DNA of 64,000 nt from Haloferula sp. BvORR071 (GTDB taxonomy: Bacteria > Verrucomicrobiota > Verrucomicrobiia > Verrucomicrobiales > Akkermansiaceae), in the NCBI RefSeq assembly GCF_000739615.1, contig NZ_BATP01000028.1, forward strand, positions 1 to 64,000, written 5' to 3'. A model generated the notes under the pieces. It made no database searches and was not told the DNA's origin. It worked only from the letters and a program-made list of their open reading frames with translations. The translations under genes were made by a program, and so were the position numbers. Shown one piece after another: positions 3 to 61,855 of this stretch; position 1 is the first letter of the stretch; the number at the start of each line of letters is the position of its first letter.

Positions 3-3000
3 TCTTTCAGCGTAGAGGTTTGGCTGAAACCAACCGCTATTCCCGCGGCGGGTGCGCTGATCTGCCCGATCGCCTCCTGGCGTGAGAATACCGACACCTT
101 CGGGCGCGAGGGCTGGCTCATTTATCAGGGCGACGCGGCTACCGGGTTCAATTTCCGCACTTACAACAAGAACGCGGCGACCATCGCAGCAAGCATCACC
201 TCGGGAGCCGGGGTGACCGCCGGTGCCTGGCACCACGTGGTGGCGACTTGGGACAACAGCGCCTCGGTCGCCAAGATCTACGTGAATGGTGTGCTGAAGA
301 CGACCAGCGCGGTGATCGCACCTGGCGGCACGAACAACCGGGCCTTTGATCCGAACACCAGCATGCCCCTCACCTTGGGCTCGCGTTCCGACAATGCCTT
401 TGCCTGGCAGGGCGGTATAGATGAGCCGGCCTATTACACCTCCGTGCTGAGCGATGCGCAGGTTCTGGCGCACTACAACAACGGCATCAATCCCGCCCCC
501 CCGACCTCCTACGACACGGTGGTAGCGGCAAACTCGCCGGTGGGCTACTGGCGCCTGAACGAGGCGGTTTTCGTGCCGCGGACCCCGCCGCCGGCGGACA
601 ACCTTGGCACCTTGGGCAGCGCGGCCGATGGCGGCTACGTGGCCGGAGCGAAGAATTCGACCACTGGTCCGGCGACGGGCTCCGGGTTCTCCGGCTTCGG
701 TGCGAGCAATTCCGCCCTCTCGCTGCAGAATGCCAACGGCTACGTGAGCAGCTTCCAGCCGCTGCTGAACAACCGCACCGCCTTTACGGTGATGGGCTGG
801 GTGAAGCGGGGAGTAACGCATTCCGCGCGCGGCGGTTACTTCGGCCAGAATGACCTGTTGGAATTCGGCGATGCCAACAATGGAACCCAGATCGAGGCAT
901 GGAGCTCGGCATCCGGACAGATCCTGACCGATGCCCCCTACCCCTTCGGCGATGACCAGTGGGGCCACATCGCCTACGTGGCGGATGGGACCAAGGTGCA
1001 GCTTTACCTCAACGGTGTGCTGTCCAAGACGGTGACCTCGACGGTTGGCAGCTACGGAACTTCCACCTACAACTTCAACATTGGCGGCGGCGGCGTGTTT
1101 GCGGCGACGGGCGACTACTTCCGCGGTGATATCGACGAGGTCGCGATCTTCGACCACGCGGTGACTTCCGGGCGGATCAAGCAATTCTACGACACCGCCT
1201 TGGGCAATGTTGGCCCGGGCTTCGTGGATACCTTCCCTGCGGTCTCGCCCGCCGGCGAGATTCCGGAAGGGCAGCCCTACACGCTATCGATCGATCCGAC
1301 GGGAACGCCGCCTTTCACCTACAAGTGGAAGCTCGGTAATACGGAGATCCCGGGTGCGACCTCGCGGACTTACACCGTGAACTCAGCGGCGGCGAACAAC
1401 CCGATCAGCGCGCCCTACACCTACTCGGTGGAAGTCACCAATGGCAGTGGCACGAGCACCAGCGATGCGACCGACGTGTTCGTGACGGCAGTGCTGAAGT
1501 GGACCGGCAACGCGCCCTCAAATGCCGGGCAGTGGGATCTGGGAGTCTCGCAGAACTGGAAGACCTTAACCGGCAACGTCGCCTCGGTTTATTCGGATGA
1601 CTACGCGGTCCAGTTCGACGACACGGCACCGGCGTCCGGCAACGTGACCATGGCCGCCGATGTGTTCCCGAAAGCGCTGATCTTCAACAACAGCACAGCC
1701 AAGAACTACAGCTTCACAGGGCCCTTCTCAATCAGCGGCCCGACCGGAGCAACCCTCTCGAAAAGTGGCACCGGCACAGTGGAACTCGCCAACGACGTGG
1801 TGAGCATGGACAGCGTGGTGGTCAATGCCGGGACTGTCCGCGTCGGCAATGGCACCACCGGCAGCCTGACGCCGGTCACCACCGTGAAGGTCCAAGGCGG
1901 CACCCTGGAAGTGAAGCAAGCAAGCGGAACCACCTACGACAGCCCGACGGTGGTCAGCGCCGGCGGTACGCTGACGACTACCGGCACCGGTGACCTGAAC
2001 TTCGTCGGCCCGATCTCGGGTGCGGGGAATGAAGTCTTCGACCGGAATGGCGTGGTGGTGAATGGTGCCAATTCGGTCGGTGGCACGGTCACGATCAACT
2101 CGGGCCTAACCGCCTTCGACGGGAGCCAGCAAGCGAACCGATTGGCCGTCAACAAGCTGATTACGGTGAATTCCGGCGCGACGATGGAAATCCGCGGGGT
2201 GAACGCCTTGCCCACCGCCGCCAACTCGGTGGATGTGGCGCTGAATGGCAGCACGCTCAACGTGGTCTCCGGCGGCAGCACGGCGACCGGTGCAGGCGGC
2301 CAGAGCCACCACCACTTGCGGAACCTGAACTTGAATGGAGCCACGATCAACCTCCCCTACTCTGGTGGCGGCAGCGCCTACGACGGGGAGAGCTTCCAGC
2401 TCAATGGTGACATCACGGTGAGCGGCTCGACGGCATCCACCATCACCTTCGGCAGTGGTGCAACTACCGGAAATGCCGGGATGTCGATTTCAGCTCCGAC
2501 AACATCCACCACCCACACCATCACGGTGCCGGACACCTTGTTGGGACCGGCGGCGGATCTGATCATCAATGCTGAGATCGAGAACTGCGATGCCGCTGCC
2601 GCGAACTCGCAGGCAGCCATCCTGGCGAAGGCCGGGACCGGAACCTTGCGTTTGGCGAATGCCATTACGCACACCTTCAGCGGAACCCTGCGGATCGATG
2701 GTGGCACCTTGGAAGCCACCGGCTCGATTCCCGGGCCGCTGGTGATTGCCGGGGCCTCAAGCATCACGCCTGGTCCCGGAGTGGCGACCTTTACCGCAGG
2801 CAACACGACCATGAACGGGACTTACCGCTGCGACATCGACGGCGCGACCTGCGACAAGATCGTGGCCAACGGCGGGCTGAGCTTCCAACCGGGATCCCAG
2901 ATCGTGTTCACCGTTCTGGCCGGGGGTGCCACCGCGTCTGCCTACGAGATCGCGCATTGCACCGGAACGATCGACGGGGCGCTGCCAAATGTCGTCGGGA

Positions 3001-3791
3001 AACCGGCCGGGTATAACCTCACCTTGGTCTCCGGCAATTCGCTGGTGCTGCTCAAAGCCAACGCGGGCTTGGGAGTCGTGATCACTCCGACGCCACCGCC
3101 AGCAGGAGGAAACGAGACCTTCGCCACGCATGGCGGCGGCTTCGCGAACAGCGCCTCGGTTTCACCCGAAGCGGACTGGGTCTACAGCAACGGCGCATGG
3201 CGGAGCAACGGCCAGGCATCTGCGGGTGGCAATGACAACACCACCTACCTGATGAGCCCGATCTACACCCTGACCCAGTCCGGGCCGATCACGCTGAGCT
3301 TCAACCACCGCTATAGCTTCGAGCCGGACTTCTATGACGGTGGTGCGGTGGATGTGAGCATCAACGGCGCCGCCTTCACCCGGGTCCCGCTCGCGTCGTT
3401 CAGCCTCAACGGCTACAATGGCTCCGTCCGCGGTGACTCCGGCACGACCCTGCAAGGTCAGCCGGCCTTCGTGGAGAACTCCACGGGACATCCCAGCTAC
3501 ATCACCAGCACCTGCACCCTGGGCACAGGTGTGAGCGGGAACACGGTACAGGTCCGCTTCATCTCCTCCTCAGACCCGAATACCTCGGGTAACCTGACGC
3601 CGCAGGGCTGGGAGATCGATTCGTTCCAACTGTCCAATGCCGAGGCGAAGCTGCTGACGCTGACCTGGCCAGCCGGGACGCTGCAGTATTCCAATACCTT
3701 GATGCCGCCGTGGACGAACTTGAACGTGACCAGCCCGTACGTGATCGACACGAAGCAAGGCTACAAGCGCTTCTTCCGCGTTGGCCCGTAA
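3..3791 (+). CDS. Large secreted LamG / beta-strand-repeat surface protein (5' end outside window)
   Basis: The reading frame is open from base 3, so the gene begins upstream of the window; the first internal GTG at 213 is not its start. The visible part holds a partial LamG/concanavalin-like jellyroll, a second LamG domain (about 520-1190), an Ig-like domain (about 1230-1480, ending VEVTNGSG), and a long beta-helical stretch with autotransporter-associated strand repeats such as LSKSGTGTVEL and LAKAGTGTLRL. A MAM/choice-of-anchor-like domain follows (about 3110-3620), then the C-terminal block WPAGTLQYSN...PPWTN...FFRVGP that is common in verrucomicrobial exported proteins. It is probably an extracellular adhesin or polysaccharide-binding protein. 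The substrate cannot be told from sequence. No PEP-CTERM anchor is visible. Confidence 0.85.
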   Translation, partial: SFSVEVWLKPTAIPAAGALICPIASWRENTDTFGREGWLIYQGDAATGFNFRTYNKNAATIAASITSGAGVTAGAWHHVVATWDNSASVAKIYVNGVLKTTSAVIAPGGTNNRAFDPNTSMPLTLGSRSDNAFAWQGGIDEPAYYTSVLSDAQVLAHYNNGINPAPPTSYDTVVAANSPVGYWRLNEAVFVPRTPPPADNLGTLGSAADGGYVAGAKNSTTGPATGSGFSGFGASNSALSLQNANGYVSSFQPLLNNRTAFTVMGWVKRGVTHSARGGYFGQNDLLEFGDANNGTQIEAWSSASGQILTDAPYPFGDDQWGHIAYVADGTKVQLYLNGVLSKTVTSTVGSYGTSTYNFNIGGGGVFAATGDYFRGDIDEVAIFDHAVTSGRIKQFYDTALGNVGPGFVDTFPAVSPAGEIPEGQPYTLSIDPTGTPPFTYKWKLGNTEIPGATSRTYTVNSAAANNPISAPYTYSVEVTNGSGTSTSDATDVFVTAVLKWTGNAPSNAGQWDLGVSQNWKTLTGNVASVYSDDYAVQFDDTAPASGNVTMAADVFPKALIFNNSTAKNYSFTGPFSISGPTGATLSKSGTGTVELANDVVSMDSVVVNAGTVRVGNGTTGSLTPVTTVKVQGGTLEVKQASGTTYDSPTVVSAGGTLTTTGTGDLNFVGPISGAGNEVFDRNGVVVNGANSVGGTVTINSGLTAFDGSQQANRLAVNKLITVNSGATMEIRGVNALPTAANSVDVALNGSTLNVVSGGSTATGAGGQSHHHLRNLNLNGATINLPYSGGGSAYDGESFQLNGDITVSGSTASTITFGSGATTGNAGMSISAPTTSTTHTITVPDTLLGPAADLIINAEIENCDAAAANSQAAILAKAGTGTLRLANAITHTFSGTLRIDGGTLEATGSIPGPLVIAGASSITPGPGVATFTAGNTTMNGTYRCDIDGATCDKIVANGGLSFQPGSQIVFTVLAGGATASAYEIAHCTGTIDGALPNVVGKPAGYNLTLVSGNSLVLLKANAGLGVVITPTPPPAGGNETFATHGGGFANSASVSPEADWVYSNGAWRSNGQASAGGNDNTTYLMSPIYTLTQSGPITLSFNHRYSFEPDFYDGGAVDVSINGAAFTRVPLASFSLNGYNGSVRGDSGTTLQGQPAFVENSTGHPSYITSTCTLGTGVSGNTVQVRFISSSDPNTSGNLTPQGWEIDSFQLSNAEAKLLTLTWPAGTLQYSNTLMPPWTNLNVTSPYVIDTKQGYKRFFRVGP

Positions 3792-3830
3792 GCGGAGTCC
3801 GCGGTTGAACGACTGACTGACAATTCGAAG

Positions 3831-3861
3831 ACGGGCGGGTGGCAACACCCGCCCGTTTTTT
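3831..3861 (+). terminator. Rho-independent terminator after the LamG protein
   Basis: A perfect 10-bp stem (3831-3840 with 3847-3856) with loop GGCAAC is followed by a run of Ts. It lies 40 bases after the stop of the surface-protein gene. Confidence 0.9.
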
Positions 3862-3880
3862 GTCGGCGGACAGACCGGGA

Positions 3881-3920
3881 ATTCCAGATCTCAAATTTGA
3901 AACTTCAGATCTGAAACCTT
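3881..3920. repeat. AT-rich palindromic intergenic element, copy 1
   Basis: Contains the 13-nt core ATCTCAAATTTGA (3888-3900) shared with copies at 11773-11785 and 38682-38694. The small palindromes CAAATTTG and CAGATCTG (3906-3913) are nested in it. Like the other copies it is preceded by CCGGGA and sits in a gene gap. It is clearly more AT-rich than its surroundings. Confidence 0.6.
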
Positions 3921-3985
3921 GGGCGTGAATGACGGACGCAGTCCCTTGGCCCAAGAAATGACGCCCGGAGAGCGACACTCCGGAG

Positions 3986-4648
3986 CTACTTCTTGAGGGG
4001 CTGGCCTTGGCCGACGCCCTTCACTTCGAGGGGGGCAGCACCGGGGCCAGGTTTAGGCGGCCCCATGGGCTCCGGCGTCGCGGGCTTGTCCGCTTGGGCA
4101 GGAGCTGCCGCGGCGTCTTGCTGGGTGCGGATCGCTTGGAAAAGGAGATTGTAGTTGTGACGGATCGCGGCGGGGAAGTTCACGCGACCGGGCTCGACGA
4201 TCTTTTCCCGCATGATCTTCGAGGTCAGGTCCGCGGTGAGATCGGCGCCGACCTTCATGGCGCCGCCGACCACCGGGGCACCACCTGCCACCGTGCCACC
4301 GGTGCGGATCACATCGCTGGCGATGGTCTGGCCCTGCAGGGCGAGATTCGATTGCGCGGAAACGACCGAGCCATCCTTGCCTACCGTGATCTCGAGGACC
4401 GCGTGGTCATTGCTGGAGAGCCAGCCGCGCAGGTGGTCGATGCGGAGCGAGGCGAAGACCCCGCCATCGGGCGTCGGCGTGATCTCCGGCTTGTAGGTGC
4501 GGTAGGAGGAGCCGGAGAGGTCGTAGTCGCAGGCGGATTTGCCCTTGGCTTCCCAGCCGCCGAGGCTCTTGCCAAAGGCGTCGATATCGATTCCCACACC
4601 AGCGTGGAGGCTGGTGACGAGGGAAAGGGCGAGAATGGTGCGGATCAT
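3986..4648 (-). CDS. Secreted protein of unknown function
   Basis: About 220 residues. I chose the ATG at 4648 because it gives a compact signal peptide, MIRTILALSLVTSLHAG. The ATG at 4711 is possible and has an AAGG upstream, but it would add a charged extension before the signal. The mature part has beta-rich segments (HAVLEITVGKDGSV) and a hydrophobic glycine-rich stretch (GGTVAGGAPVVGGAMKVG). The tail is rich in proline and alanine. I recognise no family. It stands alone between converging and diverging neighbours. Confidence 0.6.
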   Translation of the reverse strand: MIRTILALSLVTSLHAGVGIDIDAFGKSLGGWEAKGKSACDYDLSGSSYRTYKPEITPTPDGGVFASLRIDHLRGWLSSNDHAVLEITVGKDGSVVSAQSNLALQGQTIASDVIRTGGTVAGGAPVVGGAMKVGADLTADLTSKIMREKIVEPGRVNFPAAIRHNYNLLFQAIRTQQDAAAAPAQADKPATPEPMGPPKPGPGAAPLEVKGVGQGQPLKK

Positions 4649-4857
4649 GACGGAAGCGGCGCGCGGCCAGAATACCACCCGCTGGACGCAAAGCTTCAGT
4701 GAAAAATTCATAGCCTTGCAGATCTGCCCACTTGCAGAGAAGTCCACAAAATCCGAAAGAAACGCAGATCCGCATGCCGTAGCTGCGGGCCTCACGAACG
4801 CTCCGACCTGGCATCCGTGGCATTTTATCCCATAGAACCTGTTTGAACTGTTTTCTC

Positions 4858-7800
4858 ATGATTTCCAATCGAATGAACTACTGGGGCCGCGCTGGGGCGG
4901 TGATGGTCTGCACCGCGAGTGCGGTCATCGCGGCAGAACCCTTGGTGCAGCTCCAGAAGGGCGATCACATCGCGATCGTCGGCAGCGGCTTGGCGGATCG
5001 CCAGCAGCACCACGCGTGGCTGGAGGCCTTCATCCACCGCACTTATCCGGATCTGGACCTGACGGTCCGCAACTTGGGCTTCTCGGCGGACGAGGTGAGC
5101 GTGAAGCCGCGCTCGGCGGACGTGCCGCCGACGGAGTGGTTCCTTTCGATGAAGAAGGGCGACAGCACCAAGCCGGGCGAAGCGAACGTGATCTACAAGG
5201 CTGGGACCGATTTCGGAGCCGATGTGATCTTCGCCTACTGGGGCTTCAATGAGTCCTTCCGCGGGCCGGATGGCCTGGAGAAGTTCAAGGCGGATCTGGG
5301 ACAGTACCTGGATACCCAGAAGGGTGCGAACTACGATGGCAAGGGCGCTCCCAGACTGGTGCTGTTCTCGCCGATCGCGCAGGAGGATCTGAAGGATCCG
5401 AATTTCTCCGATGGTGCCACGAACAACGCGAACCTGGAGATTTATACCAAGGCAATGGCGGAAGTGGCGAAGGCGAAGGGCGTGCCCTTCGTGGATCTCT
5501 TCACGCCGTCCAAGGAGATGTTCGCGAAGGCGGGGTCGCCGCTCACCATCAACGGCATTCACTTGACGGAAGATGGCGATCGCCAGCTTGCGCCGATCCA
5601 ATTCCGCGCGCTCTTCGGAAAGGAGCCGCCGGCCCTTGAGGATCCCTTGCTCGGCAAGATCCGCTCGGCCGTGTTGGACAAGAACATCGAGTGGCACCAC
5701 CGCTACCGCACCGTCGACCAATACAACATTTACGGCGACCGCTCGCGGATCGCCTACGAGGGCGTGACCAATGCGAAGACACTGGGCGAGGAAATGGCGC
5801 AGCGTGACGTGAAGACCGCCAACCGCGACAAGCGTGTGTGGGCAGTGGCCAAGGGCGGCGACCTGAAGGTGGCCGACGACAACCTGCCCGCGGTGAATCT
5901 GGTCCCGCCGAACCGCAAGGACGAGGTCCCCTACATGGACCCGGAGGAAGCGATCAAGTACCTGAAGCTGCCGCCGAAGTGCAAAGTCGAATTGATCGCC
6001 TCCGAGAAGACGATCCCCGAGCTGATCAACCCGGTGCAGATGAATTTCGACACCAAGGGCAGACTGTGGATCTCGGCATGGCCGACCTACCCGGAGACGT
6101 CGCCGACGACGACGAACTTCGACAAGCTGCTGGTCATGGATCTGGATCCGAAGACCGGCAAGGTCGCGAAGACGACGGTCTTCGCCGATGGCTTGAACTG
6201 CCCCACCGGCTTCCAGTTCTACAAGGATGGCGTGCTGGTGATGCAATCGCCGGACCTGATCTACCTGCGTGACTCCGATGGCGACGGCAAGGCGGACGTG
6301 AAGGAGCGCGTGCTGCATGGCCTGGATGCCGCGGACTCGCACCACGAGACGAACTCGATGTGCCTTGAGCCGGGCGGTGCGGTCTATCTCAGCGATGGTG
6401 TCTTCCACCGCAGCAACGTGGAGACCTTCAACGGACCGGTGCGCAACCAGGACGGCGGGATCTACCGCTACGAGCCGAATACCGGCAAGTTCATGCGCCA
6501 CGCGCCTTACGGCTTCGCGAACCCGCACGGCCGGGTCTTCGACTACTGGGGCAATGACCTGATCACCGACGCGACGGGCAACGACAACTACTTCGGCCCC
6601 GCAATGAGCGGTCACCTCGATACCGGGGCGCACCCAGGCATGCAGCGTTTCTGGGATCGTCCCTCGCGGCCTTGCCCCGGCACGGCGATCCTGAGCAGCC
6701 GGCATTTCCCGGATGACTGGCAGGGCTCGTTCCTGAACACCAACGTGATCAGCATCCAGGGGATCTTCCGCGCCAAGCTCACGGAAGAGGGCTCGGGCAT
6801 CAAGGGCGAGACGCTGGAGAACCTGATCTCCACGGACATCGCGAAGAACCCGAACTTCCGCCCCTCTGGCATCTCGGTGGCGCCGGATGGCTCGCTCTAC
6901 TTCATGGACTGGTCGCAGATGCTGATCGGTCACTTGCAGCACCACCTGCGCGACCCGAATCGCGACCACCAGCACGGCCGCCTCTACCGCATCACCTACG
7001 AAGGCCGTCCGCTGCTGGAGCCGAAGAAGATCGACGGCGAGCCGGTGGCGAAGCTGTTAGAACTGTTGAAGGAGCCCGAGGACAACGTGCGGATGCGCGC
7101 GAAGATCGAGCTCGGCAAGCACGACTCGAAGGATGTGATCCGCGGGGTGAACGAGTGGATCAAGACACTCGACACCAAGGATCCTGGCTTCGAGCACCAG
7201 ATGCTGGAAGCCCTGTGGGTGCACCAGTGGCACAACGTGGTGGACCTCGACCTGCTCAAGCGTGAGCTCAAGTCACCCGAACCGCGGGCACGGGCCCAAG
7301 CGGTACGCGTGATGGGCTATTGGCGTGACCGGGTGCCGAATGCAATCGAACTGCTGAAGGTGGCGGCCGATGACGAGGCGCCGCGCGTGCGCTTGGAAGC
7401 CGTCCGTGTGGCGAGCTACTTCCGCCAGTGGGAAGCCGCCGACGTAGCGCTCACCGCGCTCAAGCACCCGGCCGACTACTACATCAACTACTGCCTCAAG
7501 GAGACCATGCGGCAACTGACGCCGTGGTGGAAGGATGCGATCGCACAGGGCAAGGCACTGGCCGCGGACAATCCAGCGGGGATCGATTACATCATGGGCT
7601 CGGTGAACGGCGCGGAACTCGCGAAGCTGCCGAAGTCGCCCGTGACCCTGACCGCACTGCTGACCCGTGGCGATGTGCCGGCGGCACAGCGGACGGAAGC
7701 ACTCACCGAGCTGGCAAAGCTGAAGAACAGCAGCGCGCTGGAGACCCTTCTGGGTGTGCTCGCGCCGGTGGCGAAGAGTGGCAGCGGGGCGGCGACGGAC

Positions 7801-11728: not shown

Positions 11729-11752
11729 GCGGAAACACCGGAAGCGCCGTGG

Positions 11753-11795
11753 TTTCAGATCTGAAATCCGGGATCTCAAATTTGAAATTTGAGAT
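11753..11795. repeat. AT-rich palindromic intergenic element, copy 2
   Basis: Two consecutive palindromes: TTTCAGATCTGAAA (11753-11766) and an inverted repeat with 11-bp arms around one base (11773-11783 and 11785-11795). It carries the 13-nt core at 11773-11785, with CCGGGA just before it as in copies 1 and 3. It lies between the UDG stop and the asparaginase start. Confidence 0.65.
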
Positions 11796-50304: not shown

Positions 50305-50348
50305 TCACTCCCAATCCAAGACGACCTTGCCCGACTGACCGGACATCA
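50305..50348 (-). pseudogene. Second copy of the tdh 3' end
   Basis: Bases 50308-50348 match the tdh 3' end at 51070-51110 at 40 of 41 positions; the single difference is synonymous (GTC for GTG). Read on the minus strand it encodes [13 protein letters not shown] followed at once by TGA (50305-50307), an intact C terminus lacking only the last Ala of the present tdh. The stop codon of the toxin gene overlaps its upstream edge. Confidence 0.85.
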
Positions 50349-50759
50349 AGGAAGTGGCAGATGCATCCACTTCAGTTTGGGGATGTCTTGAAAGTCCTTC
50401 GGGTTGGCAGTCAGGAGAGTGAAATCGCGTTGAACCGCTTGTGCGGCGAGCCACAGATCCTGAATACGGAAGTCAGCTCCCCGCCCGCTCCGGCGAAGCT
50501 CAGCGGCGAAGAACCCGAAAATCTCCGCCGTTTCACCGGTGATGCGAAGCAAGGGCTTCCGCCGCATCCGACGAAGAGTCCCCAGCGCCTTTTGCTTTGT
50601 CGCGGGTACAGTCATCAATTCGATGCCAAAGCGAATCTCCGCCAAGTTGACCGGAGAAAGATAGATCGGGCTTTGAGCGGTAATGGCGTGAATATCACCT
50701 GCCCCAATCCTGCCCTTTTCAATTGCAATCCAAAGACCGGTATCGATCAGGAATCCCAT
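50346..50759 (-). CDS. PIN-domain toxin (VapC family)
   Basis: 137 residues. The first conserved Asp is in LIDTGLWIAIEKG, the Glu in PVNLAEIRFGIELM, and further acidic residues are in FRIQDLWLAAQA and ANPKDFQD, making the metal-binding PIN nuclease site. VapC toxins cut tRNA or rRNA to stop translation. Its start overlaps the antitoxin gene by 13 bases. Its TGA stop sits on the edge of the tdh 3'-end copy. Confidence 0.92.
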   Translation of the reverse strand: MGFLIDTGLWIAIEKGRIGAGDIHAITAQSPIYLSPVNLAEIRFGIELMTVPATKQKALGTLRRMRRKPLLRITGETAEIFGFFAAELRRSGRGADFRIQDLWLAAQAVQRDFTLLTANPKDFQDIPKLKWMHLPLP

Positions 50760-51022
50760 GGGTCCCGCAATTCGGTCAAAGTGCCAGCATTACCCTCACG
50801 GTCGAGACGCATGGCTTCCGCCAATGCATCGGCCGTTTCATCATCGAGCGTCCGGTAAAGATCACCTAGAACCTCCAAGGCATTTTGCTCCTCCGGCTCG
50901 GGAATGATGCGCGCGATCATCCGATGATTGCGGACAATCACTACCTCTTCATGACTCTCTTCCAAGTCGTCCAAGACTTGGCTGAAGTTTCGAGCCACCT
51001 CCGTTGCTGTGAGGCTTTTCAC
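50747..51022 (-). CDS. Phd/YefM-type antitoxin (VapB partner)
   Basis: 91 residues with a GTG start. SLTATEVARNFSQVLDDLEESHEEVVIVRNHRMIARIIP is the Phd/YefM DNA-binding fold; the acidic C-terminal half should wrap and neutralise the toxin. It is upstream of and overlapping the toxin gene, the usual order. A palindrome starting 9 bases before its start is a likely autoregulatory operator. Confidence 0.92.
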   Translation of the reverse strand: MKSLTATEVARNFSQVLDDLEESHEEVVIVRNHRMIARIIPEPEEQNALEVLGDLYRTLDDETADALAEAMRLDREGNAGTLTELRDPWDS

Positions 51023-51063: not shown

Positions 51064-52092
51064 TCAAGCCTCCCAATCCAAGACCACCTTGCCCGACTGA
51101 CCGGACATCATCGTCTCGAAGCCCTTCTTGAACTCACTGACCGGGAAGCGGTGCGTGATTACTTGGGAAATATCCAGTCCCGCACGGATCATGCTGCTCA
51201 TCTTGTACCAGGTCTCGAACATCTCCCGGCCATAAATGCCCTTCAGCACGAGGCCCTTGAAGATCACCTTGTCCCAGTCGATCGCGACCTTGTCGGGGAA
51301 GATCCCGAGCAGTGAGACCTTCGCGCCATTCGAGGTGTGATTGAGAATGTCATTCAGGCCGGAGGGATGGCCGGACATCTCCAACGCCACGTCGAAGCCT
51401 TCCTTCATGCCGAGGCTCTTCATCGCGTCGGCCAGGGATTCCTCCGCCACGTTCACCGTGCGGGTCGCACCGAGCTTCTTCGCCAACTCAAGGCGCCAGG
51501 GATTCACATCCGTGACCACCACGTGGCGGGCACCGGCGAAGCGGCAGACCGCCGCGGCCATGCAACCGATCGGGCCTGCGCCCGTGATCAGCACGTCTTC
51601 TGCGACGAGGTCGAAGGACAGCGCAGTGTGCACCGCATTACCCAGCGGGTCGAAGCAGGAGATCACTTCCTCGGGAATCGAGGGATCGACCTTGTAGACG
51701 TTGCGATAAGGAATCGAGAGATACTCGGCAAAGGCGCCGGGACGATTCACGCCCACGCCCAGGGTATTCGGGCAGAGGTGGCGGCGGCCCGCGAGGCAGT
51801 TGCGGCAGCGGCCACAAACGATGTGGCCCTCGCCGGAGACCAGCTCACCCGGCACGATGTCCGTGACGCCGGAGCCCACCGATTCCACCACGCCGCAGAA
51901 CTCGTGGCCCACGTGCATTGGCACCGGGATCGTGCGTTGGGCCCAAGCATCCCACTTCCAGATGTGCACGTCCGTGCCGCAGATGGAGGTCTTCTTGATC
52001 TTGATCAGCACGTCCATCGGCCCGACCTCGGGCATGGGGACGTCCATCATCTCAAGTCCGGGACCGGCGGTCGCTTTGACGAGTGCTTTCAT
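51064..52092 (-). CDS. tdh: L-threonine 3-dehydrogenase
   Basis: 342 residues from ATG 52092, the normal length. The catalytic zinc site is [10 protein letters not shown] and [11 protein letters not shown]; the structural zinc loop is [15 protein letters not shown]; the NAD fold is [16 protein letters not shown]. It oxidises threonine to 2-amino-3-ketobutyrate in the cytoplasm. No kbl gene is adjacent. Its last 41 bases are duplicated at 50308-50348, beyond the toxin-antitoxin pair. Confidence 0.95.
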
Positions 52093-52168
52093 GGGAACGG
52101 GATGCGCCCCGATGGTCCATGCACTTCCCCGCGGGGCAAGGGAATGGTGCTTCCCCCGGAAAAAGTGA

Positions 52169-56605: not shown

Positions 56606-56650
56606 GCGCGCGGCTTCTAGCAGATTGCGCTTCGGGCGACGCGTGGAAAA

Positions 56651-57227: not shown

Positions 57228-58307
57228 TCACCACTTGCCCCGCGATCGCTCGCGGAGCGATCTCGGGCGTCTTTCCCGGCGCGGGGGCAGAGGAGACTTT
57301 GTGAGGCGGCTGCGTTGTCTTCCGCTCCACAGGAAAACTCCGACCGGCAATGCAATGAAAGGAATCAGCGCCAGGACGGTCCACCCGATGGCCGGTCCAT
57401 CGCGCCGGATCACCGATCGCCAGGGTTTCTCCGGATCAAAGAAGACCCATAGCTTGGATCCTTCCGGATGACTCGTTGCGATTCCGGTGGCCTTTTCCCC
57501 GGCAAAATCGGAGGGCTTCAGCGAGTAGCGGTTTGAAAGGTACTCCCGGCCCTCCACTTGGTACCGATAGAAGATATCAGGCACCCTCTTGGAGCGTTTT
57601 CCCACCTCGACCCTATCCGTGCGGCTCCAGACCACCTGGGCCTGCGTCTCGTTCCATTCCTTCATCCGGAAAGTCTCGATGACTTGGGCGAGAAAGAGGC
57701 CAGCGATCGCCAGGCTCGCCAGGGTGAAGAGCAGCACGACTGCTTTGACCAGAATAGCAATCGCCTTTCCGGCATCTCCAGGGTCTCTCCGGAAGCTGGC
57801 GAGCATCACGCAGGTTCCGAAGACACCGAAGAAGCCGAGGACGGTGCCCGCGACCACGACTCCCGCGAGGACGTCGGGCAATGACCTTTTCAAGGAAGCC
57901 CGCGCGGGATCGAAGCGACTCACAAAGCAACGGGCTTCCGTACCGGATAAGTTGGCGATGTTGCCGCGGGTAGCCGGTTGGACCAGAACTTCGCGGATTT
58001 CCGCCAGTGTTCCGTAGTCGCGGTTGCCATCCCGGCCCGGGAGGAGCTTGGTACCGGTGTGGCGGACACCGTCGACCTCATAGTGGAAGATCAGGTCCGC
58101 CCTAAACGCGGGATTCGAGGCTCGATCCGCCACGATCTCGAAGCGCTCGATCGTGCAGGGAGTGCTTTTCCAGAACTGAGCGGCGATGGAGGACCGTGAG
58201 CCATGCAGCCATACGGCCGTGATCCCGGAAAGGATCACGAAATAGAAGACGAGGAAGATGCGCAGTTCCCTGCGCTTCTTGCTGTCATCCTCGGTCGTGT
58301 GGCTCAC
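57228..58307 (-). CDS. DUF3592 domain membrane protein
   Basis: 359 residues, a shorter relative of the 54866-56605 protein: membrane helix, DUF3592 strand domain (STPCTIERFEIVADRAS...FHYEVDGVRHTGTKL), helix pair, second strand domain (WNETQAQVVWSRTDRVEVG...YRYQVEGREYLSNRYSL), final helix and a basic tail. The shared phrase 'EYL/ANRYSL' in both suggests local duplication. The rdgB 3'-end copy lies 43 bases upstream. Confidence 0.8.
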   Translation of the reverse strand: MSHTTEDDSKKRRELRIFLVFYFVILSGITAVWLHGSRSSIAAQFWKSTPCTIERFEIVADRASNPAFRADLIFHYEVDGVRHTGTKLLPGRDGNRDYGTLAEIREVLVQPATRGNIANLSGTEARCFVSRFDPARASLKRSLPDVLAGVVVAGTVLGFFGVFGTCVMLASFRRDPGDAGKAIAILVKAVVLLFTLASLAIAGLFLAQVIETFRMKEWNETQAQVVWSRTDRVEVGKRSKRVPDIFYRYQVEGREYLSNRYSLKPSDFAGEKATGIATSHPEGSKLWVFFDPEKPWRSVIRRDGPAIGWTVLALIPFIALPVGVFLWSGRQRSRLTKSPLPPRRERRPRSLRERSRGKW

Positions 58308-58350
58308 CGGGCGGATCTAGCAGATTCCGTTGGTTCGCGCTGTGGTAATT

Positions 58351-58416
58351 TCAGCGCTCCTTTTCCAACCATTCGATTACCTTGACGAGGGCGCGGCCGC
58401 GGTGGCTGAGGGAGTT
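58351..58416 (-). pseudogene. Diverged second copy of the rdgB 3' end
   Basis: Aligns without gaps to the rdgB 3' end at 60084-60149: 50 of 66 bases overall and 43 of the 48 furthest from the stop codon. In frame it encodes NSLSHRGRALVKVIEWLEK followed by E, R and TGA, against NALSHRGRALAKVIAWLEA followed by R, D and TGA in rdgB. SHRGRAL is the conserved RdgB C-terminal motif. No upstream part of a second rdgB is present. The stop codon of the adjacent membrane gene lies at its edge (58418-58420). Confidence 0.8.
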
Positions 58417-58417
58417 T

Positions 58418-58876
58418 TCAGGACTGCCCCCTCTCAGTGCCCCCTGTCACCAGCAATACGGTTGCGAGCACAGCGAGGCAGATGATCACGCCCGGCAAGC
58501 CGATGAAGATCACCTTGAAGGAGACATCCGTGCCCTCGCCCACGAGGGTGCCCGCAAGCTTGATAGCCCCGAACGCAGCGATCCCGGCCAATACCCAAAT
58601 CGAAATGCGAATGAAGAGCGAGGTGACCCAAGCCCTCGCTATCCCCCAAAATCCTGCGGTGGCCACCATTCCAAACCCATACATCAGAAGCGCCGAGACT
58701 CCCCGCTCGATGCGAAACGATCGATTGGCTTGGTAAGTTTCAGACCCAACAAGGTCTAACTCCGACAACGCATGCTTCAGTGAAAACACGGCGGCTCCGA
58801 CCCATGGGAGAGCGAGCAGCAACAGGGCAAGTGAGACCACCAAAGCCCATCCGGCGATCCATCGATGAAGCTTCAT
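58418..58876 (-). CDS. Small membrane protein of unknown function
   Basis: 152 residues from ATG 58876 with four hydrophobic segments (WALVVSLALLLLALPWVGAA, ALLMYGFGMVATAGFWGIA, IRISIWVLAGIAAFGAIKL, VIFIGLPGVIICLAVLATVLL). Its TGA stop is formed at the junction with the rdgB 3'-end copy, so its natural C terminus may have been lost. It lies 6 bases downstream of the next gene on the same strand, so the two form a pair. Confidence 0.7.
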   Translation of the reverse strand: MKLHRWIAGWALVVSLALLLLALPWVGAAVFSLKHALSELDLVGSETYQANRSFRIERGVSALLMYGFGMVATAGFWGIARAWVTSLFIRISIWVLAGIAAFGAIKLAGTLVGEGTDVSFKVIFIGLPGVIICLAVLATVLLVTGGTERGQS

Positions 58877-58882
58877 TCCCAA

Positions 58883-59575
58883 CTAAGGCTTCTCGGGCGT
58901 AGGCTTCTTGAGCGTTTCGACGAATGACCCTTTGTCCTTCACTTCCACGACAAGCTCCTGACTCGAGGTGGTTCCTACCCATGCTGCCGGAGCCTTGGAA
59001 TGATACTCGGCAATCACTTTGAATTTCCCCAAACGATTCTCGTAGTAGAGCTTGTCCATTGCGGCAACCAGCTCGGCACTTTTTTCGTCAAACTTGTTCA
59101 GGAGTTGCTCGCTCTCCTCACCTGGAATCGCGGCCTGCTGCGCTCGCACTTCAGCGACCCATGCTTGGATCTTGGCGAGCCGGACTTCCGACGGCTGGAG
59201 GATCTCCATCGAGTAGTTCACGATCTTTTTGCCGTCTTTCCCCCCACTCCCGTAATAGTTAACTTTTACTGGAACCGGAGCCCCGGAGGCGACGTCGGTA
59301 ACCTTGATCGTGATGTATTCATTGGGGTTCTGCCCTTGAGCCGGGTTCACCGGCAATACACCCGACTCAGAAACGTCCTCCTCCTCTATTTTCCTGTCCA
59401 AGGTGAACTCCACATCAATCCGCTTGATATTGCTCAATGGAATGACGCCGGCGGGCACGGACTCTTCTGCGAGCGGGTTCAGAATCGCAAGAGTGAGGAC
59501 AGGAGCCTCCTCGGCCTTGGCGCAGGCCATGCACCCCATCGAAGCACTTAGAAGAAAGCGGAGGATCGTTTTCAT
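58883..59575 (-). CDS. Exported protein of unknown function
   Basis: 230 residues from ATG 59575. The signal peptide (MKTILRFLLSASMGCMACAKAEE) contains Cys residues, so a lipoprotein is possible, though the lipobox is poor. The mature part is strand-rich then helical (QAWVAEVRAQQAAIPGEESEQLLNK). I recognise no family. Together with the small membrane protein it makes up the block between the two rdgB 3' ends. Confidence 0.65.
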   Translation of the reverse strand: MKTILRFLLSASMGCMACAKAEEAPVLTLAILNPLAEESVPAGVIPLSNIKRIDVEFTLDRKIEEEDVSESGVLPVNPAQGQNPNEYITIKVTDVASGAPVPVKVNYYGSGGKDGKKIVNYSMEILQPSEVRLAKIQAWVAEVRAQQAAIPGEESEQLLNKFDEKSAELVAAMDKLYYENRLGKFKVIAEYHSKAPAAWVGTTSSQELVVEVKDKGSFVETLKKPTPEKP

Positions 59576-60083
59576 GAGAATCAAGGAACAAGGAAGGGAG
59601 CAGGACCAAGTAGAGGCGGATCGTAAGGAGTCAAACTGATACCAGTCCTTGGGATTCTCCGTTTGAGGCCTCGGCTCGTCATGAGGAGGCTCCCACCATT
59701 CGTGGTCAACTCTCGCATTTCAACATCGTCAGTGGGGGTTGATGTGAAGATGCGAGATCTGACCGCTATTGATGTGGTGGTGGAAGTGGTTTTCGAGGCT
59801 GCAAGGCGAAGGTGATTGCGGGCCGCTGGGGTGGGCTTGGGGGAGATCGGGGATGGGGTGGAGATCGTTAGGTGCTCCACGGCAGCAAGCTGCCTGCCGA
59901 AGGCGGTGGCAAGCCTCCGCAGTCCAAGGTCGAAGGCGGCGGAGCCGCGAGGGAGTGGTGGAATGGCTGCGCTATTCCAGGCTGGGGAGTCCGCCATGGA
60001 GGAGGGGAATGGCGTTTTGGGGGAGGAATGCGCCCAGCCGGAACGGCGCAGCCGTTCCGCTACGCGCTAAGGGCCGTGGGAGA
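59576..60083. other. Gene-free region with hairpin repeats downstream of rdgB
   Basis: 508 bases without a convincing gene. It contains two adjacent hairpins with the same CAAG loop (59881-59894, and 59903-59920 with one mismatch) and a 9-bp perfect inverted repeat with loop GCA (60039-60059) near the rdgB stop. They look like dispersed non-coding repeats, and the last may end rdgB transcription, though no T run follows. Confidence 0.45.
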
Positions 60084-60680
60084 TCAGTCGCGGGCCTCGA
60101 GCCATGCGATGACCTTGGCGAGGGCCCGGCCGCGGTGGCTGAGGGCGTTCTTCACCTCCGGGCCCAATTCGGCGAAGCTCTGGGTGTGGCCTTCGGGGGC
60201 AAAAAGCGGGTCGTAGCCGAAGCCGCCGGCACCGTAGGGGGCTTCGAGGATGCGGCCTTCGACGGTGCCGCTGAAGTAGGCGAGGACCTGGCCGCCCTGG
60301 GCGAGGACCATGGTGCAGCGGAAGCGCGCGGCGCGGTCGGTCTTGCCGGCCATTTCGGCCATCAGGCGGGCGTTGTTTTTCGGGTGGTTGCCCTCCTCGC
60401 CGCCGTAGCTACTGGACCAGACGCCGGGAGCACCGCCGAGGGCATCGACCTCCAAACCGGAGTCATCGGAGAGTATCAATCCTGTCACCTCGCGGCTGAT
60501 GCCGGCGGCTTTCAGGGTGGCATTTTCGAGGAAGGTGGTGCCGGTCTCATCGATCGCGGGGAGGGCTGGAAAATCATTCACGTCCAGCACCTTGTAGCGA
60601 TCGCCGATCATTTCCCGGATTTCCTGGGTCTTATGGGCATTGCGGGTGGCGACGATCAGGACGGGAAGTTCCGGCGGCAT
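60084..60680 (-). CDS. rdgB: RdgB/HAM1 family non-canonical purine NTP pyrophosphatase
   Basis: 198 residues. Family motifs are LIVATRNAHKTQEI (substrate loop), FLENATLKAAGISREVTG, LILSDDSGLEVDALGG (catalytic Asp), GAGGFGYDPLFAPEG and the terminal ALSHRGRALAKVI. It hydrolyses dITP and XTP to keep them out of DNA. Its 3' end is matched by a diverged copy at 58351-58416, beyond two accessory genes. Confidence 0.95.
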   Translation of the reverse strand: MPPELPVLIVATRNAHKTQEIREMIGDRYKVLDVNDFPALPAIDETGTTFLENATLKAAGISREVTGLILSDDSGLEVDALGGAPGVWSSSYGGEEGNHPKNNARLMAEMAGKTDRAARFRCTMVLAQGGQVLAYFSGTVEGRILEAPYGAGGFGYDPLFAPEGHTQSFAELGPEVKNALSHRGRALAKVIAWLEARD

Positions 60681-60760: not shown

Positions 60761-61216
60761 ATGAAAGCCATAACCCATCTTGCCTTTTTCGCCGCCACCT
60801 CCGCTCTGGTGAGCTCAGCCTTCGCCGCGACTCCGGAGGGCTGGACGACCGATCTGGAGAAGGCTCTGGAGCAGGCGAAGAAGGAGAAGAAGGCGGTGCT
60901 GGTGGAATTCACCGGCTCCGACTGGTGCGCACCCTGCATCGCGGTGAAGAAGGCGGTGCTGTCCAAGAAGGAGTTCTCCGACAAGGCGGCCGAGAAGTTC
61001 GTATTGGTGGAACTGGATTTCCCGAAGAAGGACGAGGAGCTGGCGAAGAAGAACGAGCCGCTGCGGGACAAGTACAACGTGGAGGGCTTCCCGACGATCC
61101 TGCTGCTGACCGCAGAGGGGAAGCAGTTCTCCACCTTCAATCCGGCCCAGTTCATGAAGGTGGATGAGATGCTCAAGCACCTGGACGGCGAGCTGGAGAA
61201 GAAGGAGCTCGATTGA
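60761..61216 (+). CDS. Secreted thioredoxin-like protein (CAPC)
   Basis: 151 residues with a signal peptide ending SSAFAATP. The thioredoxin fold has its redox pair in FTGSDWCAPCIAV and the cis-Pro in VEGFPTILLL. Probably a periplasmic disulfide reductase or isomerase. It is paralogous to the gene at 61376-61855 (same GSDWC entry, same LDFPKK/ADFPKK strand). Confidence 0.9.
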   Translation: MKAITHLAFFAATSALVSSAFAATPEGWTTDLEKALEQAKKEKKAVLVEFTGSDWCAPCIAVKKAVLSKKEFSDKAAEKFVLVELDFPKKDEELAKKNEPLRDKYNVEGFPTILLLTAEGKQFSTFNPAQFMKVDEMLKHLDGELEKKELD

Positions 61217-61267
61217 GCCGAGCCATTTGAATTTCTACGCGGGCGCTATTCGTTCATGGCAGCCCGG

Positions 61268-61302
61268 GCCCCGTCCGGATCCTGTGCCGGGCGGGGCTTT
61301 TT
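61268..61302 (+). terminator. Terminator between the two thioredoxin-like genes
   Basis: An 11-bp stem with one G-T pair (61268-61278 with 61287-61297) and an 8-base loop is followed by five Ts. Confidence 0.88.
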
Positions 61303-61375
61303 GTTGGAATGACATTCGCGGTGAAAACCCTCCTTTTCATGGAATGCGGAGGGCTCCCGGCGCGTCCTAGTTGGC

Positions 61376-61855
61376 ATGAAGACGTTTTTCCGTCCGCTTG
61401 CCGTGCTTGTTGCTTCCGCCTCGATGGCCATGGCCGCCAGTGAGGGATGGGTGACCGATTGGGAGGCTGCGAAGGCGAAGGCCAAAGCGGAGAAGAAGCC
61501 GATCCTGATCAACCTGACGGGCTCGGATTGGTGCGGGTGGTGCATCAAGCTGCACCAAGAGGTCTTCGATCAAAAGGCCTTCAAGGATTACGCGGCAGCG
61601 AACCTGATCCTGATGGAGGCGGACTTTCCGAAAAAGACCAAGCTGCCCGAGGCGCTGGCGAAGCAGAACAAAACGCTGGAGAAGGAGTACCTGAACGGAG
61701 GGTATCCGACGGTGCTGCTACTGGATGCGGAGGGCAAGAAGCTGTCCAAGGACCTGGGCTACCAAAAAGGCGGGCCGGAAGCCTACATCGCGACGATCAA
61801 GGAGGAGCTGGCGAAGAAGCCCGCGGCTGAGCCGGCGAAGGTGCCGTCCACCTGA
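61376..61855 (+). CDS. Secreted thioredoxin-like protein (CGWC)
   Basis: 159 residues with a signal peptide (ASASMAMAASEG). The redox pair is in LTGSDWCGWCIKLH and the cis-Pro in NGGYPTVLLLD. The CGWC site with the preceding GSDWC matches the DsbD-gamma/thioredoxin_7-like secreted group. It is a tandem paralogue of the previous gene, separated by a terminator, so the two are probably expressed independently. Confidence 0.9.
   Translation: MKTFFRPLAVLVASASMAMAASEGWVTDWEAAKAKAKAEKKPILINLTGSDWCGWCIKLHQEVFDQKAFKDYAAANLILMEADFPKKTKLPEALAKQNKTLEKEYLNGGYPTVLLLDAEGKKLSKDLGYQKGGPEAYIATIKEELAKKPAAEPAKVPST

Follow-up and report, generated by a model that had tools for sequence, protein, structure and literature searches.

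Insertion of a two-gene block with a doubled gene end at rdgB in Haloferula sp. BvORR071

In Haloferula sp. BvORR071, the 3' end of rdgB, which encodes the XTP/dITP diphosphatase, is present twice, and two small genes without a known family, here called g1 and g2, lie between the two copies. We examined this arrangement in a stretch of 64,000 nucleotides (the window), positions 1 to 64,000 of contig NZ_BATP01000028.1 (C39; 120,756 bases) in a genome of 7.8 Mb and 66 contigs (G000). Below, "tip" designates the displaced copy of the rdgB end at 58351-58416, and "tail" the present 3' end of the gene at 60084-60149, both on the reverse strand. The block carrying g1 and g2 is an insertion, and the doubled gene end probably arose by recombination with DNA from a related strain. 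A second gene end, that of a tdh-like dehydrogenase gene 9 kb away, is doubled in a similar way.

The doubled rdgB end and its empty site in relatives

The tip and the tail were compared at the levels of DNA and protein. Translation of the tip gave N-S-L-S-H-R-G-R-A-L-V-K-V-I-E-W-L-E-K-E-R-stop, and that of the tail gave N-A-L-S-H-R-G-R-A-L-A-K-V-I-A-W-L-E-A-R-D-stop. The two copies are identical at 50 of 66 nt and at 43 of 48 nt in the inner part, with the frame and the stop codon intact in both, and a 19-nt stretch is the same in the two arms. Mismatches accumulate toward the stop codon (4 of 39 inner versus 12 of 24 outer positions; Fisher P = 0.0008). The initial annotation had reported an in-frame RdgB C terminus with the SHRGRAL motif and a stop codon at 58351-58416, the inner identity of 43/48, and a divergence rising toward the stop, all of which were confirmed here. 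A blastn comparison of 150 nt with 250 nt gave an E value of 4e-16. In a gapless comparison of the 63-nt tail with every position on both strands of the window, the tip scored 47 (mean, 17.7; standard deviation, 3.9), and the runners-up scored 40, inside rdgB itself, and 35. The pair is one of four direct-repeat families of at least 40 nt whose members lie within 12 kb of each other in the window.

The homology between the copies, which are 1,733 bp apart, is bounded on one side a few nucleotides before the NxLSHRG motif and on the other side by the stop codon. Therefore, only the tip of rdgB is present in the displaced copy, as had been proposed. What separates the copies also agrees with the earlier description: two small genes, at 58418-58882 (g2) and 58883-59584 (g1), both on the reverse strand, and a noncoding stretch at 59585-60083. 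The TGA stop codon of g2 abuts the tip, and the junction between them is a TGAAAA/AAAA run, with about 6 nt apparently in common.

We then looked at the region downstream of rdgB in the 17 other genomes of the genus, 16 of which had an rdgB match. A DUF3592-family match started no more than about 130 nt past the rdgB stop codon in 10 of the 16 (a partial match in G005), and in an eleventh, G007, rdgB is followed first by an MgtC-like gene and next by a DUF3592 gene. No match of this type was found in the examined rdgB-downstream stretch of the remaining five (G013, G006, G004, G017, and G015). The initial annotation had raised the possibility that rdgB precedes the DUF3592 gene in relatives, and such a cluster behind rdgB was indeed the arrangement in 11 of 16 genomes. 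In G010, G008, and G012, the spacer from the rdgB stop codon to the GTG start of the DUF3592 gene is 43 nt long, with CTGCTAGA at offset 27. The spacer from the tip stop codon to the GTG in the window is likewise 43 nt long, with CTGCTAGA at offset 27. Because spacer and offset match those of three relatives, we interpret the tip as the old rdgB end at its old place, with 1,733 bp now intervening.

Exactly one rdgB match was found in each of the 53 genomes with a match (out of 57, own included), and no duplicated rdgB tail was seen downstream at the 19 rdgB loci examined in relatives (over 1.9 kb only in G005). Both results bear on whether the tip is an ordinary pseudogene, that is, a second full rdgB decayed to its last 22 codons. 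Nothing besides the tip itself speaks for such a history; none of the 19 loci keeps more of rdgB at this place, and on its inner side the tip is bordered by the coding sequence of g2, not by remains of the rdgB body. We consider a pseudogene very unlikely. A full-length second rdgB in decay was not seen, and the single rdgB in 53 genomes together with the empty site in 11 of 16 supports the earlier preference for an inserted block over a decayed full duplicate. The tip and the tail resemble alleles of two species, as they would in a chimeric assembly of two strains. However, the contamination estimate is 0.07, the window lies within a contig of 120,756 bases, and a chimera would need a common stretch at the g2/tip junction, where only about 6 nt are apparent; an assembly artifact is thus extremely improbable.

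The surroundings of rdgB showed some further features. The number of DUF3592-family genes behind rdgB varies across the genus, and they are mostly about 30 to 50% identical to those of the window, which indicates a fast turnover of the rdgB 3' flank. The sequence TCTGCTAGA occurs at 56616-56624 and 58316-58324 (reverse strand), shortly upstream of two DUF3592 start codons. It has two matches in the window versus 0.2 expected, the spacing of the second site is conserved in three relatives, and it is possibly a promoter element. Two tandem Thioredoxin_7 proteins are encoded at 60761-61855, divergently from rdgB, and their synteny with rdgB is kept in most of the genus. The coordinates of the features at both loci are given in Table 1.

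Table 1. Features of the rdgB and tdh loci in the window
Feature	Coordinates	Strand	Evidence or remark
DUF3592-family gene, ancestral downstream neighbor of rdgB	57228..58307	-	PF12158, E 4.6e-18; synteny in relatives
Spacer from tip stop to DUF3592 start, 43 nt	58308..58350	-	Length and CTGCTAGA position as after rdgB in G010, G008, and G012
rdgB 3' end, displaced copy (tip), in-frame stop	58351..58416	-	blastn, gapless slide, repeat listing, pairwise count
g2, 154 aa, all-helical, membrane protein by hydrophobic stretches (by eye), no family	58418..58882	-	Structure model; weak matches in the class
g1, 233 aa, probably secreted (signal peptide by eye), no family	58883..59584	-	Second copy on contig C37
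Noncoding part of the insert	59585..60083	.	Dispersed intergenic repeats of the genus form a mosaic at about 59810-60079
rdgB present 3' end (tail), 66 nt, one direct-repeat arm; proposed to have arrived with the insert	60084..60149	-	50/66 identical to the tip
rdgB, XTP/dITP diphosphatase, Ham1p_like, intact, insertion target	60084..60680	-	PF01725, E 1.2e-60; TIGR00042, 156.9 bits (cutoff, 145.35)
tdh 3' end, displaced copy	50305..50348	-	40/41 nt identical over 50308-50348
PIN-domain toxin, insert; TGA overlaps first 3 nt of the tdh tip	50346..50759	-	PF01850, E 1.3e-9
Phd/YefM-type antitoxin, insert	50747..51022	-	PF02604, E 5.2e-8, 33.0 bits (cutoff, 29.8)
Zinc-binding dehydrogenase, tdh-like, target gene	51064..52095	-	PF00107 and PF08240; 94-98% aa identical in nine same-genus genomes

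The cargo and the source of the two rdgB ends

The inserted block differs in composition from its target, with a GC content of 0.54 to 0.58 for g1 and g2 (0.54 for g1) and a GC content at third codon positions (GC3) of 0.68 to 0.69, versus 0.66 and 0.82, respectively, for rdgB. No recombinase was found in the block, and the tyrosine recombinase family PF00589 had no match on the whole contig; serine recombinases were not searched for. The noncoding stretch had at least 48 matches in its own genome, 47 of them besides itself and all within 59810-60079, a lower bound because 40 of 96 first-look candidates were scored. Before about 59810, no other match was present among the matches listed, except for 25 nt beside g1. 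The repeats at 59810-60079 occur in at least 15 of the 18 genomes of the genus, own included. Since the repeats of this 0.5-kb stretch are so widespread in the genus, the insert appears to be chromosomal DNA of the genus rather than phage or plasmid DNA. Among the repeat types are one of about 145 bp, which gave three successive matches on contig C11 (29993-30584), and a palindromic one of about 33 nt present in many copies in several genomes.

Neither g1 nor g2 had a match in Pfam, NCBIfam, PHROGs, or PADLOC. For g1, a comparison with Protein Data Bank sequences gave nothing below an E value of 0.37 (a single match), searches of the genome, viral, plasmid, and phage collections gave no match, and the gene was not found in the 56 relatives and the 383 other genomes of the class that were searched (0/56 and 0/383). 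It was seen in its own genome alone, in two copies with 84 to 85% amino acid identity, one in the window and the other on contig C37. Between these copies, the nonsynonymous divergence (dN) is 0.08 and the synonymous divergence (dS) is 0.26 (dN/dS, about 0.31), indicating that g1 encodes a protein under purifying selection. The copy on C37 is accompanied by a truncated g2, whose homology ceases after about 16 codons. It lies in a 2.9-kb stretch (2178-5074 of locus L009) between a gene resembling DUF2383 (under the Pfam cutoff) and a GH43 gene, and G010 has only about 0.1 kb between these two genes; the locus on C37 showed no doubled gene end. For g2, weak matches were found in 2 of the 383 other genomes of the class, one of them to a protein of similar size (157 aa). 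Structure models gave an all-helical g2 with a mean predicted local distance difference test score (pLDDT) of 67.5 and a poor model for g1 (mean pLDDT, 46.7). The two genes probably form an accessory envelope pair, a function that we infer for a secreted protein and its membrane partner.

The insertion, the displaced tip, and the lineage-specific nature of the cargo are shown by these results, and the donor and the route are inferred. A 1,733-bp block composed of the noncoding stretch, g1, and g2 entered rdgB within its last 66 bp. It displaced the former 3' end downstream, where this end still stands ahead of its DUF3592 neighbor. The incoming DNA would have supplied an rdgB end of its own, derived from a different lineage of the genus, and RdgB thereby remained whole. 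As a likely route, incoming DNA with an rdgB end and the gene pair may have used homology to recombine with rdgB on one side, and on the other side a few matching bases may have served for the join, in the TGAAAA/AAAA run at the g2 stop codon.

From the tree and from the comparisons of divergence and codon positions with relatives, we left out G004, G015, and G002, which have tails of other lengths. The divergence between the tip and the tail was as large as that between the tails of different species of the genus, and the contrast between inner and outer mismatches corresponds to the profile of rdgB evolution between species. Third codon positions accounted for 48% of the differences between the tip and relatives, 49% of those between relatives, and 56% for the rdgB tail. 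From the A-run of the junction onward, the tip and the rdgB end of G012 are identical over 29 nt. Over its last 24 nt, rdgB matched best with G009 (22/24; 20/24 in a slightly shifted window, the top of 105 pairs), unlike the body of the gene, which is nearest to that of G010. In the tree, similarly, the tail grouped with G009 (support, 0.867) and the body with G010 (0.716). We therefore read the tip and the tail as alleles of two lineages and, because of its position before the old DUF3592 neighbor, the tip as the native one.

Several points weigh against this explanation. The differences between the tip and the tail are spread evenly over the codon positions (6, 5, and 5; dN, 0.27; dS, 0.44), and this somewhat favors a tip that was nonfunctional for some of the time. 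The tree supports, on 66 nt, are weak and too low to name a donor. Of 16 relatives, 12 are nearer to the tail, 3 are nearer to the tip, and 1 is equally near to both, as would also be expected if the tail were native and the tip imported; with only 66 nt to compare, either end may be the foreign one. The DUF3592 gene has a GC3 of 0.74, between that of g1 and g2 and that of the rest, and it may have traveled too. An rdgB-g1-g2 arrangement without the tip was found in no genome. The copy at the tdh locus, at 40/41 identity, needs no foreign strain, and a limitation of the two duplications to the last 44 to 66 nt is not predicted by one-sided homology alone. Taken together, the initial proposal that one rdgB end came from a different strain is only moderately supported. 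The between-species divergence and the codon-position pattern of the tip agree with it, and no such pattern was seen between the tip and the tail; the tree that had been suggested as a check separated the tail from the body but could not identify a donor.

The nearness of the tail to 12 of 16 relatives would also be accounted for if the events had run in the reverse direction, with a native rdgB tail, g1 and g2 already behind rdgB, and a foreign rdgB end added later behind g2 together with the DUF3592 gene. The low GC3 of the DUF3592 gene for the region and the arrangement in G007, where the MgtC-like gene stands behind rdgB with no DUF3592 gene between, are consistent with such a course. However, it requires two events, a loss and a gain, where one would suffice, and g1 was found in no relative, so we regard the reverse direction as rather improbable. 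We retain the entry of the block into the end of rdgB, with the tip as the native end, as the preferred explanation.

The second doubled end at tdh and a scan of the genome

The second doubled end, which the initial annotation did not mention, belongs to a dehydrogenase gene at 51064-52095, 9 kb from the rdgB locus; the enzyme is presumably L-threonine 3-dehydrogenase. Its locus has the order dehydrogenase, palindrome with 11-bp arms (found by eye), antitoxin, PIN toxin, and copy of the tdh end. The tdh gene proper ends with DWEA-stop, and the stop codon of the displaced copy comes one codon earlier. The tdh end is single in 13 of 13 relatives, and neither the antitoxin-PIN pair nor a doubled tdh end was found within about 1.5 kb in any of them (0/13). 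The next gene in the window (Cdd1) was not found within about 1.5 kb behind tdh in these relatives either, and thus the empty state of the tdh site is not demonstrated. The rdgB and tdh loci have in common a cargo of two genes, the same direction of cargo and target, and a last cargo gene whose TGA abuts or overlaps the start of the displaced end. An attachment motif common to both ends was considered and rejected, since the local score of the two tips was reached by 66% of 1,485 pairs of gene tails from the window. We also took 22 other PIN-family loci, 5 of which had no usable position (L282, L288, L293, L298, and L299) and 6 of which tblastn located away from the gene (L283, L284, L286, L291, L296, and L301); no repeat of the flanks was found at the 11 with a usable position. 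Elsewhere in the window, an A/T-rich 40-nt repeat pair with internal CAGATCT/AAATTT units is present at 3871-3924 and 11742-11795, 7.9 kb apart.

A comparable layout would also result if an integrative element had, in the manner of e14, taken the 3' end of rdgB for its attachment site. The insert would then be the remnant of that element, the site-specific crossover would lie within NxLSHRGRAL, and the recombinase would have been lost or have acted in trans. Indeed, the locus resembles an attL/attR pair with the gene end restored in frame, rdgB being open to its normal end, and the portion of a report dealing with e14 in icd describes a doubled gene end of 165 bp with 12 changes and an intact frame (PMC11148124). 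There are also seven Phage_integrase matches elsewhere in the genome, six of them above the cutoff. The 19-nt identical stretch between the arms would fit this reading, but it is simply conserved rdgB sequence, identical also in G010 and G013. The failure to find a recombinase at the locus (of the tyrosine type; serine recombinases were not searched for) disfavors an integrase route. In the 16 same-genus genomes with rdgB, no integrase match above the cutoff was found within 100 kb of rdgB on the same contig; G005 has one match of 20.7 bits, under the cutoff, about 1.5 kb from rdgB on its other side. Furthermore, the 19 loci of relatives hold no copy of the rdgB tail, no viral contig carried the one degenerate tail pattern searched for, and the ends of rdgB and tdh are no more alike than random gene ends. 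We therefore consider an element remnant unlikely and prefer recombination with related-strain DNA.

To find more doubled ends, we scanned 60 stretches of the same genome together with the window (1,263,756 bases including overlaps, about 1.15 Mb beyond the window) for short copies of gene tails downstream. Open reading frames (ORFs) of at least 100 aa were used, copies were sought 200 to 6,000 nt away, and paralogy of at least 45 aa was excluded. In the window alone, at an E value of 1e-4, only rdgB and tdh were recovered, and copies of 5' ends were zero. From the first 20 stretches came 19 rows for tails and 13 for heads, mainly tandem repeats; among them, the rows of L221, L230, and L235 were dropped as tandem paralogues without inspection. 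With gene calling, the scan gave 6 downstream tail, 9 upstream head, 7 upstream tail, and 6 downstream head rows, and it did not pick up rdgB, probably owing to the gene caller. The six downstream tail rows comprised tdh; L238, L260, and L277, which were tandem paralogues on inspection; and two rows of L265, likewise dropped but uninspected. The L225 candidate was a dispersed repeat within a spurious ORF.

Among nine bounded in-frame downstream rows, a coding-like GC3 was found in two, rdgB (E value, 8e-14) and tdh (6e-15), and not in the other seven. The corresponding upstream control gave seven rows, two of them with a coding-like GC3, both from one L225 gene (E values, 8e-8 and 3e-7). For gene starts, 10 rows were bounded copies with a coding-like GC3 (excess of at least 0.05), the best with an E value of 1e-12 (L235); these rows were neither inspected nor subjected to a frame test, and the frame rule in the companion tail scan missed rdgB. 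All of the control rows had weaker E values than rdgB and tdh (best, 1e-12). A third downstream case with a coding-like gene was not found in the additional 1.15 Mb or so, and the scan did not show a general excess of 3'-end over 5'-end copies. This lack of an excess lowered our estimate that both inserts belong to one unrecognized class of two-gene cassettes without a recombinase, which would enter the last 44 to 66 bp of genes, each carrying a replacement gene end and having its last TGA on or at the target. Such a class, whose cassettes might take their stop codon from the target, now seems quite doubtful. The layout itself is real, with two occurrences, and a general preference for gene ends was not shown.

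Small accessory pairs, for example, toxin-antitoxin pairs, are found in genomes with no visible recombinase beside them, and how they land is often unclear. Two nearby landings that doubled the end of the host gene and left the gene whole provide a footprint for which other genomes can be screened. Were gene ends to carry this footprint more often than gene starts do, a route of entry would be identified; otherwise, rdgB would still illustrate clearly, for Verrucomicrobiota, that an insertion at a housekeeping gene can be tolerated.

Comparison with known insertion systems

Insertion with long target duplication is reportedly the subject of work by Nobusato, Uchiyama, Ohashi, and Kobayashi from 2000. 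It is also treated in parts of two later papers (PMC3031569 and PMC4978471). According to passages of a further report, the pattern came from two Helicobacter pylori strains and often involves restriction-modification genes (PMC1643837). Long variable target duplications, on the order of 100 bp, are described for some restriction-modification systems in sections of a paper that handles these together with toxin-antitoxin systems (PMC3874152). The loci described here resemble this kind of insertion in that a small gene set lies between long direct copies of the target, with no recombinase found in the insert (serine recombinases not being covered by the search). The flanking repeats are 66 nt long with 50 identical positions, 1,733 bp apart, at rdgB and 41 nt long with 40 identical positions at tdh, and an empty site with a single target copy was found for rdgB in 11 of 16 relatives, as in long target duplication. 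The cargo differs, being the orphan pair g1-g2 at rdgB and the Phd/YefM-PIN pair at tdh instead of restriction-modification genes, although such cargo is presented as frequent rather than defining (PMC1643837, in the same passages). The duplicated piece here is the 3' end of a gene, unlike that in the long target duplications described. As for the identity expected of a fresh duplication, 40/41 at tdh fits, whereas 50/66 at rdgB does not and is a species-level difference.

The prophage e14 of Escherichia coli K-12 resides in icd and has a putative integrase gene (PMC11148124, in the part on e14). As in that case, the insertion at rdgB lies in the 3' part of a gene, with the old end on the far side and a new in-frame end bearing substitutions. 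Unlike e14, the insert is 1.7 kb long and no integrase was found. A narrow literature search found no paper on rdgB as an island site.

Homology-facilitated illegitimate recombination, as outlined in sections of PMC3240628, uses homology on one side and a match of 3 to 10 bp on the other, inserts about 1 kb on average, and is generally, but not absolutely, accompanied by a deletion of similar size. The TGAAAA/AAAA junction at rdgB may fit this mechanism, as judged against the rdgB genes of G007 and G012. The locus departs from it in that no deletion is evident, the old neighbor and the 43-nt spacer being in place, and in that a short doubled gene end was left behind. On this comparison, the rdgB case is an instance, with a twist, of a known kind of insertion, the closest being that with long target duplication.

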